Source: Helicobacter pullorum NCTC 12824 (GTDB lineage: Bacteria > Campylobacterota > Campylobacteria > Campylobacterales > Helicobacteraceae). From it: a stretch of 64,000 bases of DNA. Position numbers and translations under genes: made by a program. Positions within the stretch are counted from its first letter, which is position 1. Each line of letters opens with the position of its first letter. Of this stretch, positions 54,328-58,769 are shown piece by piece. Where the stretch lies: NCBI RefSeq assembly GCF_017979475.1, contig NZ_JAERIT010000003.1:124001-188000 (forward strand), given 5' to 3'. Below the pieces are notes generated by a model, which was not told the origin of the DNA, did no database searches, and was given only the letters and a program-made list of their open reading frames with translations.

Positions 54328-54396
54328 GTTAGCAATCAAAATCGTTGTTAATAGGCATTATTAAACTATGAGAATATCCCATAATTTATTTAATAG

Positions 54397-54422
54397 CATT
54401 AATATTTAAGTTTATATTAATG
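54397..54422 (+). promoter_or_regulatory. Operator-like palindrome over the -35 of the 54482 operon
   Basis: CATTAATAT and ATATTAATG are perfect 9-base arms separated by 8 bases. They cover the place where the -35 should lie relative to TATAAT at 54432. A repressor bound here would block transcription. The binding protein is unknown. Confidence 0.6.
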
Positions 54423-54431
54423 GTGTTGTAT

Positions 54432-54437
54432 TATAAT
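54432..54437 (+). promoter_or_regulatory. -10 box of the 54482 operon
   Basis: TATAAT stands 44 bases before the first ATG in the only gap upstream of the operon. It gives a leader of roughly 38 bases. Confidence 0.6.
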
Positions 54438-54481
54438 TCCTAATTTTTGAGCTTAAATATCTTGAAAATTTAGGGGAGATA

Positions 54482-54838
54482 ATGTCGTTGGGGGAGAAAA
54501 GTTTGATACAAAATTATTCTATCACGCCTCAAGACTTAGAAATGTTTGCAGAATATTTTTCTATTATTCATCATATTGATGGTAGAATCCGATTGCGTGC
54601 AAGTGCAAAATTAAAAAAATTCTTGCAAGAAAATGATACGATTAACCCCTTTAATATTTTAGAAGCAATAGAAGCTAGCCCCGCTATAAAATCTATCAAG
54701 TTTAATAAGATTATTGGCTCACTTACTATACAATATGATACTAATTTGTTTGAGCCTATTTATTGGGAATCTTGCATAAAGGGTGAGAGGCTTGAGGAAA
54801 TTGCCAACAAAATTAATTGGATGATAAAAGAGATTTGA
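54482..54838 (+). CDS. HMA-like (HMA_2) small protein, first gene of ferrosome-like operon
   Basis: 118 residues. The central part HHIDGRIRLRASAKLKKFL and the later ASPAIKSIKFNKIIGSLTIQYD have the beta-alpha-beta pattern of heavy-metal-associated domains of the HMA_2 type. The CxxC metal-binding pair is missing, as in that subfamily. A related module begins the P-type ATPase at 56320. AGGGGAG precedes the ATG. Its stop overlaps the next ATG (TGATG). A metal-sensing or docking role next to the ATPase is inference. Confidence 0.65.
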   Translation: MSLGEKSLIQNYSITPQDLEMFAEYFSIIHHIDGRIRLRASAKLKKFLQENDTINPFNILEAIEASPAIKSIKFNKIIGSLTIQYDTNLFEPIYWESCIKGERLEEIANKINWMIKEI

Positions 54839-55425
54839 TGACAACACAAGAGAAAATATTAATCGCATTAGATGATGAATACAAGGCATATAGTTTTTAT
54901 AACAAGGCTATGCAGCTTTATGGAATGCCTTTTGCGAATTTGTTTCAATCAGAGGCAAACCATATCAACGCTTTAAGTTTGCATTTGCAAAATCTCAATG
55001 TGCCAATTCCGCAGAATCCTTATGAAGATATTGTGATACCTAATACTTTATCAGGGGCTTTAGAAGCGGCAATAGAGAATGAAAATCAAAATATCGCACT
55101 TTATAATTCTTTGATTGAGGGGGAGCAAGATTCTTTGGTGCTTGATACTTTTTATCGTTTGCAAGCTGCTTCTTTTAACAATCACATTCCTTCACTCTTT
55201 AATGCTTTGAATGCAAATACTGGTTTGCTGGATAAAATCAATAATGGCAGAGCACTTTTGAGTGAGACAGGAGAAATTGTAGCACAACTCCAAAATGGAG
55301 AGCTTACACAAGGACAGTTGGAGGCTTTCCTTAATAAGCTTAATTATTCCCTTATGGGCGGAATGATTTTGGGAGCGTTTGGGGCGATTATTCTCAATGA
55401 ATTTTTAAATCAAAATAAGGAGTAA
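54838..55425 (+). CDS. Ferritin-like four-helix protein with C-terminal membrane helix
   Basis: 195 residues. The di-iron pattern of ferritin-like proteins can be traced: Glu14 in DDEYKAY, Glu39 and His42 in SEANHINAL, Glu76/80 in LEAAIENEN and His116 in NNHIPSL. It is closest in layout to DUF2202-type rubrerythrin-like domains. The C-terminus MGGMILGAFGAIILNEFLNQ is a glycine-rich membrane helix, so this domain would be tethered to a membrane. Iron oxidation or delivery is the likely role. The ATG overlaps the preceding stop. Confidence 0.72.
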   Translation: MTTQEKILIALDDEYKAYSFYNKAMQLYGMPFANLFQSEANHINALSLHLQNLNVPIPQNPYEDIVIPNTLSGALEAAIENENQNIALYNSLIEGEQDSLVLDTFYRLQAASFNNHIPSLFNALNANTGLLDKINNGRALLSETGEIVAQLQNGELTQGQLEAFLNKLNYSLMGGMILGAFGAIILNEFLNQNKE

Positions 55426-55428
55426 ATT

Positions 55429-55659
55429 ATGGCATTACCATTTATCGCAGGTTTAGTAATCGGGTCTGGAGTAGCATTGTTATTTACCAAAAAAGATATG
55501 CTTCAAAAGGGAGTTGATTTTGCAAAAAGTTTTGCTAAGCTAGATGGGGAAGATTGTGCAAAACCTAAAAAAGACAATGAGAAAACTCCAAATAATAATG
55601 TAGAAGTGAAGCGGGTTGTTAGAAAAAGACTTACAAAAAAATCACAAAAAGTAGAGTAA
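55429..55659 (+). CDS. Small YtxH-like membrane protein
   Basis: 76 residues. The N-terminal helix LPFIAGLVIGSGVALLFTKKD has small-residue spacing (GxxxG-like) and is followed by a Lys-rich soluble tail. It starts 3 bases after the ferritin-like gene. Proteins of this form are often found with encapsulated or membrane-bound iron stores, but no function can be assigned from sequence. Confidence 0.65.
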   Translation: MALPFIAGLVIGSGVALLFTKKDMLQKGVDFAKSFAKLDGEDCAKPKKDNEKTPNNNVEVKRVVRKRLTKKSQKVE

Positions 55660-55678
55660 ATAAGTTGAAGGATTATTG

Positions 55679-56044
55679 ATGATAATAAATACAGGAATCC
55701 CGCGTTCTGTCGTTGGGCATACGATAAGTGGTTCAATTATCGGAGCTATGGTAAGCGGAGTTTATGAATATTCCAAATATAAAAAAGGTGAAGTGAGCAA
55801 AAGCGAAGCGATTAATACCACATTAAAAGCAACGCTTGAGGGAGGAATTATTGCAGCAAGTGGTATTGCAGCAACTAATGCACTTGGAAATCCTGCTAAA
55901 AAGCCTTTGTCAAATGCCCTAGAGGCAATGTCCTATGTAGCATTAGGGGTGGCTGGTGTATATGGAATCCAACAAGCTTTTAAGCAAAATTCACAAAATT
56001 TCACAACAAGGAGAGTAAATGACAAATCAACCAAATCCAAATAA
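55679..56044 (+). CDS. Glycine-zipper double-helix membrane protein, MamC-like
   Basis: 121 residues. Two hydrophobic helices (about 10-30 and 55-75), both rich in Gly, Ala and Ser, are joined by a charged loop YKKGEVSKSEAINTTLKATL. The loop plus the following GGIIAASGIAA closely follows the pattern of the magnetosome protein MamC (charged loop ending TEA..T, then Gly/Ala helix). MamC binds iron mineral surfaces in magnetosomes. The similarity is seen by eye only. ATG 55679 has AAGGA 7 bases upstream; a TTG three bases earlier is less likely. Confidence 0.6.
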   Translation: MIINTGIPRSVVGHTISGSIIGAMVSGVYEYSKYKKGEVSKSEAINTTLKATLEGGIIAASGIAATNALGNPAKKPLSNALEAMSYVALGVAGVYGIQQAFKQNSQNFTTRRVNDKSTKSK

Positions 56045-56318
56045 TCCCTATATACAAAATAATTCTACAAACACGCAGCAAAATGCAGATAAGCAAAACA
56101 ATGGTATTTTGAATGTTTTTGGGGATCAAAACACACAAAAAGATTTTATCAAAGGTGCATTAATTGGTGCAGTGGCGACTTTTATTTTGACTAATGAAAA
56201 TGCACAAAGAGCTATTTTCAAAGGATTTGCAAAAGTGAGCGGACTTTTTGAAGCAGGTATAGAGGAATTAAAAGAGCGTTATGAAGATGCCAAAGCAGAG
56301 GTAAATTCACAAGAATAA
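56019..56318 (+). CDS. Small membrane protein with Asn/Gln-rich N-terminus
   Basis: 99 residues. The first 35 are rich in Asn, Gln, Pro and Thr. A membrane helix FIKGALIGAVATFILTNENA follows, then an amphipathic charged tail GLFEAGIEELKERYEDAKAE. The GxxxG-containing helix resembles those of its neighbours. It overlaps the MamC-like gene by 26 bases and is read from its own AAGGAG. Function unknown. Confidence 0.62.
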   Translation: MTNQPNPNNPYIQNNSTNTQQNADKQNNGILNVFGDQNTQKDFIKGALIGAVATFILTNENAQRAIFKGFAKVSGLFEAGIEELKERYEDAKAEVNSQE

Positions 56319-56319
56319 A

Positions 56320-58449
56320 ATGCACACTCAATTTAAATACGCTCTAACGCTGAAACTTATCCATTCTACAAAGAATCGTGCAAGATTTAAATATTCTTGC
56401 TTGAAGGATTTTAGGGTTAATCCTATGCCTTTGCGTATCGAATTAGATAGCCTTCCAGGGATTTTAAATGTGCGTATTAATACAATATTGAATAATATTA
56501 TTGTTCAATATAATGGGGATTTAGAGCGGATTCAAGAAACAATCTATCAAATTTTATTGAAGCATATTAAGCAGTGCAATATCCAAAAAAATGAAGATAG
56601 CTATTTAGCACTAAGAGATGAGATTCCAAGCTCAGCTGAAGTGGTGAGGGCTACAACAGCACTATTAGTTTCCCCTTTTTTGAATAGTTTGCCCCTTAAA
56701 ATGGGATTTTCTCTTATTGCTTGTTTTCCTTTGCTTGTAAGTGGAATCAAAGAAACTTGGCAAAATGGCATTAATTCACGTACCCTAGAAGCAATGGCAG
56801 TGGCAATTTCCCTCTATTTGAGAGATTTTAAAACGGCTAATTCTACAAACTTTATGTTGGCACTTGGTGAATATATCGAAGAAATTACAATGTATAAGAG
56901 TGATGATTTAATCAAAGAGCTTTCTAAGCCAACTGGCGGAAATGCGTGGATTGAAGTTAGGGACAAAAATGGAATTTCTCTTAAACAAGTGTCAAGTGAA
57001 GAATTAAAGATTGGGGATATTGTCGTTATAGGAGCGGGGGAAACGATTTTGATTGATGGGCATATCATCAAAGGGGAAGCGTTAGTTAATCAAATTTCTA
57101 TGACAGGGGAGGCTACTCCAACTTACAAAGGTAGAGGAGATAGAGTTTTATCTGGCACAATTGTCCAAGAAGGTAATATTAGGGTGTGGGCAGAAAGTGT
57201 GGGCGGTGATACCGCAATGGCACGAATTAAAAATTATATTGAAGAAACTTTGGTGCAAAAATCCGCAAAAGAATTAAGTGCTTCTAAGATGGCAGATTCT
57301 TTAGTCCCTATTACTTTGGGATTGTCTATTTTTTCTTATCTTTTTACGCGAGATTTAATGCGTGCTGCAAGTGTTTTGCAGGCAGATTATTCTTGTGCGT
57401 TGAAGCTAACTACGCCCGTGGCTTTTAAATCTGCTATTTCAAGTGCGGGGAAAGAAGGGATTATTATAAAGGGTGCAAAAAGCCTAGAATCTTTGCAAAT
57501 GAGCGAAGTGTTTATTTTTGACAAAACAGGCACTCTAACCAAAGGGGATTTGGAGGTTTTGGAAGTTTATTCTTTTTCAAAAGAGTGGAATGAAGATTTG
57601 ATTTTGAATCTTGCTGCAAGTATCGAAGAGCATTATTTTCATCCTGTTGCACAAGCAGTAGTAAAAGCCGCAAAGGAAAAGGAATTTGTGCATTTTCATC
57701 ACGATGAAGTTACTTTTATTGTTGCACATGGGGTAAAAAGCGAAATTAATGGCAAGAGCGTTGTGATTGGAAGTCGGCATTTTTTGGAAGATGATGAGGG
57801 GATTTCTTTCATCCAGCATCAAAATGAAATACAAAAAATCTTAAAAAGAGGCGAAACCCTGCTTTTTATTGGTTATGATTCTAAGCTGTTGGGTGTAATT
57901 TTGCTCAAAGACATTTTGAGAGAAAATTCTAAGAGAGCTTTGGAGAGATTGAGGCAAAGTGGAGTAAAAGAAATTATTATGCTAACAGGCGATACCAAAC
58001 AAAAAGCCGCACAAATTGCAAAAGAGCTTGGGATAAATCGCTATTATGCCGAGCTTTTGCCCACGCAAAAAGCAGAGATTTTAGAGCAAATTATGCAAGA
58101 GGGCAAGAAGGTTGCTTTTGTGGGCGATGGCATTAATGATGCACCCGCACTCATTAAGGCTGATACGGGCATAGGAATGCACAAAGGGGCGGATATTGCT
58201 AAAGCAAGTGCCGATGTTGTTTTGTTGCGTGATGATATTGAAGCGGTAGCTGAAGCAAGGGAGCTTGCTATTGCATGTCTTAATAAAGTGCAAAGGAATT
58301 TTAAAATCACAGTGGGAATTAATAGTTTGATTTTGGGATTGGCGACTTTTGGCAAACTTTCTGCGATTCAAACAGCTTTTGCACATAATGGCACAACCAT
58401 TGCACTTTTGTTTAATGCGATTCAAAAAATCAAAGTAAAAAAGGAATAA
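56320..58449 (+). CDS. P1B-type metal ATPase, FezB-like (P1B-6 group candidate)
   Basis: 709 residues. An N-terminal HMA-like module without CxxC (about 10-80) is followed by the P-ATPase core: actuator TGEAT, phosphorylation motif DKTGTLTKGD (about residue 400), FHP in the nucleotide domain, and GDGINDAPAL. The metal-site helix reads DYSCALKLTTP instead of CPC, so it is not a copper or zinc/cadmium pump. Such non-CPC ATPases with HMA_2 modules include FezB of ferrosome clusters, which loads iron. The neighbours support this. It starts one base after the preceding stop. Confidence 0.8.
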   Translation: MHTQFKYALTLKLIHSTKNRARFKYSCLKDFRVNPMPLRIELDSLPGILNVRINTILNNIIVQYNGDLERIQETIYQILLKHIKQCNIQKNEDSYLALRDEIPSSAEVVRATTALLVSPFLNSLPLKMGFSLIACFPLLVSGIKETWQNGINSRTLEAMAVAISLYLRDFKTANSTNFMLALGEYIEEITMYKSDDLIKELSKPTGGNAWIEVRDKNGISLKQVSSEELKIGDIVVIGAGETILIDGHIIKGEALVNQISMTGEATPTYKGRGDRVLSGTIVQEGNIRVWAESVGGDTAMARIKNYIEETLVQKSAKELSASKMADSLVPITLGLSIFSYLFTRDLMRAASVLQADYSCALKLTTPVAFKSAISSAGKEGIIIKGAKSLESLQMSEVFIFDKTGTLTKGDLEVLEVYSFSKEWNEDLILNLAASIEEHYFHPVAQAVVKAAKEKEFVHFHHDEVTFIVAHGVKSEINGKSVVIGSRHFLEDDEGISFIQHQNEIQKILKRGETLLFIGYDSKLLGVILLKDILRENSKRALERLRQSGVKEIIMLTGDTKQKAAQIAKELGINRYYAELLPTQKAEILEQIMQEGKKVAFVGDGINDAPALIKADTGIGMHKGADIAKASADVVLLRDDIEAVAEARELAIACLNKVQRNFKITVGINSLILGLATFGKLSAIQTAFAHNGTTIALLFNAIQKIKVKKE

Positions 58450-58450
58450 A

Positions 58451-58579
58451 ATGTATTTCATCTTATGGGCAGCGACTGCTGTAAGTGGAGCTTTGATGGC
58501 AAAAACGATTCATCAAAGTTATAAAAAATATCAAAAATACACAAAGAAGAAATATGAAAAAAACGAAGCTAGAAACTAA
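58451..58579 (+). CDS. Very small membrane protein (42 residues)
   Basis: A 42-residue frame starts one base after the ATPase stop: MYFILWAATAVSGALMAKTI, then a strongly basic tail. It has one membrane helix with small residues. It overlaps the next gene by 26 bases. AAGGAA lies at the end of the ATPase gene before its ATG. Its tight position suggests it is real, although it is short. Confidence 0.5.
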   Translation: MYFILWAATAVSGALMAKTIHQSYKKYQKYTKKKYEKNEARN

Positions 58580-58769
58580 AAGAGAAATTGCAAAGATTGG
58601 AATGGCTACAAGCCTATTTTTAACAGCAGGAAGCACAATGTTTTTAAAAAATAAAGCAGCTAGACGCTTACACATTGGTGCTGGAATTGCGTTGATTGGA
58701 TTTTCTTTGTGGCATACTTCGCTGTATCCTAAAGAAAAAAAATCCACAAAGAAGCTGGAAAAATCTTAA
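58554..58769 (+). CDS. Small two-helix membrane protein with conserved-looking His residues
   Basis: 71 residues. Two hydrophobic helices are visible: IGMATSLFLTAGSTMFL and LHIGAGIALIGFSLWHTSLY. The second carries two histidines 14 residues apart, which could bind haem or metal. The ends are basic. It is the last gene of the iron-storage-like operon. A haem or ferric reductase-like role is speculation. Confidence 0.58.
   Translation: MKKTKLETKREIAKIGMATSLFLTAGSTMFLKNKAARRLHIGAGIALIGFSLWHTSLYPKEKKSTKKLEKS

Follow-up and report, generated by a model that had tools for sequence, protein, structure and literature searches.

A probable fez-type operon in Helicobacter pullorum that combines a ferritin-like protein with a distant homologue of MamC

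The locus described here raises the question of whether a Helicobacter species carries the genes for ferrosomes, that is, for a membrane-based form of iron storage. It occupies positions 54482-58769 on the + strand of a 64,000-nucleotide stretch of the Helicobacter pullorum NCTC 12824 genome (contig NZ_JAERIT010000003.1, positions 124,001 to 188,000; hereafter the window) and comprises eight co-directional open reading frames, g1 to g8, which at all seven junctions either overlap or leave no more than 19 bases between them, in agreement with an earlier sequence-only reading of this DNA, which had described eight tightly packed genes. From sequence comparison we consider it quite probable that these genes form a fez-type (ferrosome) operon, in a version distinctive of Campylobacterota. 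The reading is based on the gene set, on an HMA_2 ATPase without a CPC motif (g6), on a FezC-like protein (g8), on a similar cluster in Azospirillum and on Fur-like genes upstream of related loci; the MamC homology of g4, the ferritin-like character of g2 and the iron transport genes beside the Azospirillum and Cereibacter relatives add to it. The interest of the operon rests on its ferritin-like and MamC-like parts.

An HMA_2 N-terminus combined with the absence of CPC is a hallmark of FezB, a transporter of the P1B-6 class, and g6 (56320-58449, + strand; 709 amino acids) has this combination (VLQADYSCALKL). It matches TIGR01525 with 476 bits, and its N-terminus scores 27.1 bits against HMA_2 (PF19991) alone and 30.1 bits together with its neighbours, which is borderline at the cut-off of 30. 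In transmembrane segment 4 (TM4) the sequence VLQADYSCALKLTTP has YSC in place of CPC, and HNGTTI follows towards the C-terminus; the P1B-type ATPase with an HMA_2 module and a non-CPC site of the sequence-only reading is therefore upheld, with its HMA_2 module at the margin. All 48 orthologue rows share YSCAL, as do the rows of Azospirillum, Vibrio and the Arcobacter plasmid; the Cereibacter ATPase has DYACPVKL in TM4. Nearly all rows carry GEYIEE or GEYMEE and HNGTT alongside YSCAL, with two loci (L072 and L078) deviating at both.

In a tree of 75 ATPase rows, g6 falls in a 50-row clade with the HMA_2 ATPases of Azospirillum, Vibrio and Cereibacter (Shimodaira-Hasegawa-like approximate likelihood ratio test support 99), and the same clade has a support of 100 in a tree reduced to 45 rows. 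SilP, the annotated copper pumps and CadA lie outside it in both trees. Members of the Cu/Ag/Cd group would be expected to have CPC in TM4 and to cluster with these pumps; g6, with its YSC and separate clade, does not qualify as one of them. The sequence-only reading had depended on the ATPase keeping clear of the copper, zinc and cobalt clades, and for copper it does so, standing apart from the copper, silver and cadmium pumps sampled. Both trees are quick ones, built without bootstrap and from references without a named ZntA, cobalt or nickel pump. The ATPases of Sinorhizobium meliloti, Deinococcus and Gloeothece form very long branches; the reduced tree was made by removing Deinococcus, Gloeothece and one copper pump (Leuconostoc) and by thinning the orthologues, S. 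meliloti being kept.

The last gene, g8 (58554-58769, + strand; 71 amino acids), points in the same direction. FezC is described as a DUF4405-like protein for which binding of haem b by a homodimer has been proposed: the homodimer model can form haem sites, and recombinant FezC shows haem b spectra (PMC11334425). Like the FezC/DUF4405 cytochromes, g8 is small and has two invariant histidines 14 residues apart, H40 and H54 (H-X13-H), in 40/40 rows, where K14, F50, L57 and Y58 are also conserved; it carries an AKIGM motif as well. It differs from them in being only 71 residues long and in a PF14358 (DUF4405) match under the cut-off (E 0.01), and its haem binding is a prediction. A DUF4405-like protein with conserved histidines, the description of FezC that served for the comparison in place of a proven FezC sequence, fits g8. 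In three loci (L049, L056 and L057) g8 is 208-212 amino acids long owing to a C-terminal extension, with a SpoIIAA-like match (PF11964) in L049 and L057; the idea that these long forms are double FezC proteins was ruled out by the SpoIIAA-like domain in the two scanned.

The most extensive comparison was with a cluster on plasmid p3 of Azospirillum brasilense, in which six genes stand in the order HMA_2 plus FezC-like, HMA_2, g3-like, g4, g5 and ATPase. Profiles identify g1 (2e-18), g4 (7e-9) and g5 (2e-12); the FezC-like hairpin, fused after HMA_2, is matched by the g8 profile (E 0.0099) and has AKIGM and the same 14-residue histidine spacing; and the g3-like gene (E 0.4) was assigned by position and look. 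Altogether five genes correspond to those of the window by profile, one of them weakly, and the sixth by position. The FezC-like module that is fused to HMA_2 in Azospirillum is a separate last gene in the window. Iron ATP-binding cassette (ABC) transporter genes follow the Azospirillum cluster on the opposite strand. Vibrio sp. THAF190c has a cluster of g1-, g4-, g5- and g6-like genes, and a Cereibacter cluster contains g5- and g6-like genes; an HMA_2 gene lies downstream of these, and g4 is matched weakly (E 6e-5). FeoA immediately precedes the Cereibacter cluster, which is flanked on either side by genes for TonB-dependent receptors. In Rhodopseudomonas palustris the fez genes are RPA2333-2338, and Shewanella putrefaciens has a six-gene fez operon. 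Compared by way of the Azospirillum stand-in, the window shares with the R. palustris-type operon a P1B ATPase, small membrane proteins and a FezC-like protein, and it departs from the six-gene fez operon by the addition of the DUF2202 ferritin-like g2 and the tiny g7. These two would be Campylobacterota additions, because the out-of-phylum stretches searched lack them, bar a match to the tail of g2 in Cereibacter. The fezXAB operon of Clostridioides difficile has three genes by name and can be likened by description only; two sources state that the transporter FezB and the membrane protein FezA are needed for ferrosomes and that the operon is repressed by Fur (PMC12574912, PMC11533511). Fusobacterium and Priestia ATPases, taken as proxies for C. 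difficile FezB, are 31-32% identical to g6.

The gene set recurs in related bacteria. A scan with the ATPase returned 11 loci, of which one is labelled Campylobacter troglodytis and the other ten bear Helicobacter or Helicobacteraceae labels, the nearest named relative being Helicobacter apodemus (81% identity in the ATPase). L003-L011 have all eight genes in the order of the window, and a single genome accounts for both L012 and L013, which are fragments. Since gene order is kept in the nearest loci at identities of 66-90% for g6, 36-66% for g2 and 45-70% for g4, the operon is not a product of chance. PF19991 is matched in 147 of 397 Campylobacterota genomes (over the cut-off in 113), and 40 stretches were fetched from genomes with such matches. 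The count covers 46 loci, 9 named and 37 from genomes, after removal of the duplicates L059, L066 and L077 and the two fragments; one of them, L081, is not a fez locus and is left out wherever 45 loci are given. All eight genes are present in 25 of the 46, g7 alone is missing in 10, g7 and g8 are missing in 5 and other patterns are seen in 6 (L081 included), numbers that do not describe a random sample, because the loci were picked among HMA_2 matches. As some loci end at contig edges, the absence of g7 or g8 in L051 and L067 may reflect lost sequence. The g4 profile has one match in each of 132 of the 397 genomes, 12 of the 18 genomes of the window's genus among them, including the window's own; the weakest of the 132 (genome G055, E 3.9e-4, in a frame of 517 amino acids) is doubtful.

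The Helicobacter group of the ATPase tree also takes in the copy from C. troglodytis and two of the four copies from a further genus (g23), a pattern suggestive of transfer. A 133-kb plasmid of an Arcobacter (L088) carries the eight genes as well and is a possible transfer route. Two loci of family f5, L072 and L078, contain a reduced version with an ATPase of 613-617 amino acids carrying DYSCALRL, in which no ferritin-like or FezC-like gene was found. In L043, L044 and L075 a long gene stands between the ATPase and the FezC-like gene; that of L044 encodes a sodium:alanine symporter (PF01235), and the other two look similar.

The sequence-only reading had singled out a membrane-tethered ferritin-like protein, and g2 (54838-55425, + strand; 195 amino acids) answers to this description at the level of its family and of its predicted fold. 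DUF2202 (PF09968) is matched by 14 of 31 family members at E<=0.01, the window's own not among them, and Rubrerythrin by 12 of 31; against the PDB, the family profile finds MJ0754 (E 1.3e-7). The AlphaFold2 model (mean predicted local distance difference test score (pLDDT) 81.8) retrieves MJ0754 (3q4n) as best Foldseek match (E 3.8e-4), followed by ferritins and bacterioferritins, so that the family profile and the model agree on a DUF2202 ferritin-like protein of four-helix fold. The window sequence taken singly gives a sub-threshold match to PF00210 (E 0.034) and no PDB match by phmmer. g2 shares fold and ligand pattern with MJ0754 and other DUF2202 proteins and differs in its location in a fez-like operon, in the loss of ExxH in part of its family and in a hydrophobic, Gly-rich C-terminal segment (about residues 168-190), which would act as a membrane anchor, since residues 168-186 are hydrophobic (hydropathy 1.67). 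Searched against the out-of-phylum stretches, the whole g2 profile found one Cereibacter protein (E 2.6e-4), aligned to the membrane tail. Kinship of the tail with the Gly-rich proteins of the Vibrio and Cereibacter clusters was considered and set aside as only suggestive (tail alone E 0.036, above all decoys). No g2 was found in 3 of 45 fez loci (L046, L072 and L078).

What g2 does is a separate matter. Its probable metal ligands in the window, E14, E39, H42, E82 and H116, give the E/ExxH/E/H pattern of a diiron site. All five are kept in 24 of 44 rows, that of the window among them, which speaks for iron chemistry. The helix-B ExxH is lost and H116 replaced by Y in nine rows of family f2 (L043-L045, L047, L048, L069, L070, L075 and L076), ExxH is also lost in H. 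apodemus and Helicobacter mesocricetorum, and Y21 and E82 are kept in 44/44 rows. These losses leave an appreciable, if minor, chance that g2 is a structural or targeting protein with a ferritin fold and no iron chemistry, a variant that is compatible with the fez-type reading.

The MamC-like pattern attributed to g4 (55679-56044, + strand; 121 amino acids) was borne out by its relatives. The window protein scores 16.1 bits (E 0.011) against the MamC model NF038051; of 28 relatives, 21 reach E<=0.05. The strongest match, of 39.2 bits (E 6.3e-10), spans model positions 8-96 of 97, and the g4-like protein of Vibrio matches with E 8.8e-9, the g4 proteins of Azospirillum, Cereibacter and L009 giving no NF038051 match at E 0.1. 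Ten reversed relatives produced no MamC match at E 1 (0/10). Nine of the ten matched other families with E 0.0008-0.08, so single E-values near 0.01, including the 0.011 of the window protein, mean little alone. By profile evidence the g4 family is a distant homologue of MamC along most of the 97-position model and not MamC itself; all its scores are far under the equivalog cut-off of 100 bits, which argues for homology and not for membership. The comparison with magnetosomes is confined to MamC (Mms13), no search aimed at other magnetosome genes having been made. The AlphaFold2 model of g4 is of low confidence (pLDDT 67; three helices) and was not used for a fold search, and the g4 profile found nothing better than E 0.49 in the PDB. 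In the accessible portions of the literature covering both subjects we found no statement of a MamC homology of this type in ferrosomes, a statement that the founding ferrosome papers may contain.

The remaining genes encode small proteins. g1 (54482-54838, + strand; 118 amino acids) is, as had been proposed, a small HMA_2 protein (PF19991, 38.6 bits; Pfam cut-off 30) in which G34, R35 and R37 are present in 47/47 rows and R39 in 94%; g1 and g6 account for the two PF19991 matches of the whole genome. g3 (55429-55659, + strand; 76 amino acids) has an N-terminal Gly-rich membrane helix (hydropathy 2.21 at residues 1-19), and g5 (56019-56318, + strand; 99 amino acids) is a YtxH/DUF5132-like Gly-rich protein with an N-rich N-terminus and has counterparts in Azospirillum, Vibrio and Cereibacter (profile E 2e-12 to 6e-14). 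They were found in 41 and 45 of the 46 loci, counts that are not independent because the two profiles drifted into each other in iteration (144 and 146 members). The tiny membrane protein g7 (58451-58579, + strand; 42 amino acids; hydropathy 1.36 at residues 2-20) was found in 27 of the 46. With the threshold for a membrane call set at 1.3, g2, g3, g4 and g7 pass. Thus, of the three small glycine-zipper membrane proteins of the sequence-only reading, g3 and g4 stand by hydropathy and g5 does not, and of its two further tiny membrane proteins g7 stands, whereas g8 falls below the threshold and is better described as FezC-like.

Evidence on regulation comes from the related loci. In 17 of 45 loci a Fur-like gene precedes the operon in the same orientation, at a distance from g1 of up to 160 bases in 10 of them; in the other seven, a CPC-type P1B ATPase gene intervenes (five loci) or the distance is greater (two). 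PF01475 was confirmed directly for one of these upstream genes (E 3.8e-26), and in 8 genomes a match to it falls at the site of the close gene; these genomes have 4-5 PF01475 matches each, one of those in G297 being below the cut-off; each of three Helicobacter genomes examined has two. A second P1B ATPase gene lies 5' of g1 on the same strand in L044, L047-L051, L056, L057 and L076, and by similarity in L058. Its product has SCPCAT or SCPCST in TM4 and HIGHT, HLGHT or HIAHT in the C-terminal helix (nine rows) and clusters separately in the tree, and a Fur-like gene precedes it in five loci. Fur boxes were sought with a 15-mer on 16 upstream regions and with a 19-mer on 31; the pooled score for the 31 regions was raised, at 399 vs 374 (standard deviation 4.9), with fractions of 0.008 and 0.013 against shuffles and permuted motifs. 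We dropped the claim of a Fur box, since low-GC controls score nearly the same.

A candidate promoter and leader (54390-54481, + strand) with TATAAT at 54432-54437 was picked out by eye in the upstream sequences, where the tract is common to H. apodemus and H. mesocricetorum. A consensus scan found fewer promoter-like sites than shuffles contain (10 vs 17.4), leaving TATAAT without significance, and the single promoter earlier placed ahead of the eight genes is not established. Judged from translations, a glutamine-synthetase-like gene on the opposite strand adjoins the operon on its 5' side, and efflux outer-membrane-like and membrane-fusion-like genes follow on the + strand. The genome as a whole has one PF00210 ferritin outside the operon and two Fur-family genes.

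Several results weigh against the fez-type reading. In the Helicobacter loci examined, no Fur gene was found in the 3.5 kb ahead of the operon, and the promoter of the window has no significant Fur box; mean Fur-box scores are 12.87 upstream vs 12.61 in AT-rich control regions, and matches of at least 14 occur in 9/31 upstream vs 5/33 control regions. All Pfam DUF4405 matches of g8 are sub-threshold, and the clusters of Vibrio, Cereibacter, Fusobacterium and Priestia yield no FezC-like match to the g8 profile. In the reduced tree the g6 clade joins the Fusobacterium and Priestia HMA_2 ATPases with a support of 60 only, and the comparison of g6 ran through proxy HMA_2 ATPases in place of proven FezB proteins. 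The set of five ligands is incomplete in 20 of 44 g2 rows, so that ferroxidase activity cannot be a role common to the whole g2 family. Finally, g5 and g8 are both under the hydropathy threshold, and the drift between the g3 and g5 profiles counts on the same side.

On the fez-type reading, g6 would most likely move cytosolic Fe(II) into membrane vesicles, with g1 as a metal-handling partner of the pump. g8 would most likely be a haem b dimer passing electrons across the vesicle membrane, iron being oxidised for storage or reduced for release. g3, g5 and g7 may shape or fill the vesicle membrane, g4 may contact or nucleate mineral, and g2, held by its C-terminal tail, probably on the cytosolic face, may bind or oxidise Fe(II) beside the pump. 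Formation of an organelle by the operon is likely on the present gene evidence. Of the earlier iron-organelle reading, the ferrosome-like part is the best supported, the FezC-like g8 adding to it, and iron and vesicles are deduced from the genes. Somewhat short of an even chance is a further proposal, that the organelle would be a composite, in which a ferrosome membrane carries a tail-anchored ferritin-like protein and a MamC-type mineral-binding protein, and that the MamC family would be shared by ferrosomes and magnetosomes through a common ancestor.

Unlikely, by our estimate, is an Fe(II) efflux complex in the plasma membrane, which would send iron to the periplasm with the small proteins as subunits and form no organelle. 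In its favour, export is the usual task of P1B ATPases, storage could fall to the ordinary ferritin encoded elsewhere in the genome, and the vesicles are a prediction from the genes. Against this, a similar six-gene cluster is found in an alphaproteobacterium, and in R. palustris six fez genes give rise to ferrosomes (PMC12016538). A plain exporter, moreover, needs no Gly-rich small proteins, no MamC homologue and no FezC-like protein. A pump for Co, Ni, Mn or Zn, in metal resistance or in storage unrelated to iron, is very improbable: the YSC site is not tied to one metal, the substrate of g6 is predicted and Fur-family members can sense Zn or Mn, but the ferritin-like fold, the FezC-like protein, the MamC homology and the genes for iron transport that neighbour the clusters of Azospirillum and Cereibacter all point to iron, and the tree, in which named Co, Ni and ZntA pumps are not represented, keeps g6 off the Cd, Cu and Ag pumps sampled.

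In the accessible portions of the literature searched for ferrosomes with Helicobacter or Campylobacter, a search outside which most subscription papers lie, there was no report of ferrosomes in these genera, the texts naming C. difficile as the maker. Searches for DUF2202 as a ferritin-like family and for the HMA2 domain with ferritin and Campylobacter found no literature, and a search for granules in Helicobacter returned nothing on ferrosomes among the matches listed; nor did the matches listed on P1B-6 ATPases and on fezB in connection with Fur contribute anything further. The FezB phylogeny of a 2022 paper may already include Campylobacterota. As far as the accessible sources go, ferrosomes have so far been described in few species. 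If the fez-type reading is correct, iron organelles would be common in the phylum, as 132 of the 397 Campylobacterota genomes sampled have one copy of this conserved version. The addition of g2 opens the question of how protein-based and membrane-based iron storage combine, and the MamC homology of g4 offers a concrete, testable link between ferrosomes and magnetosomes.

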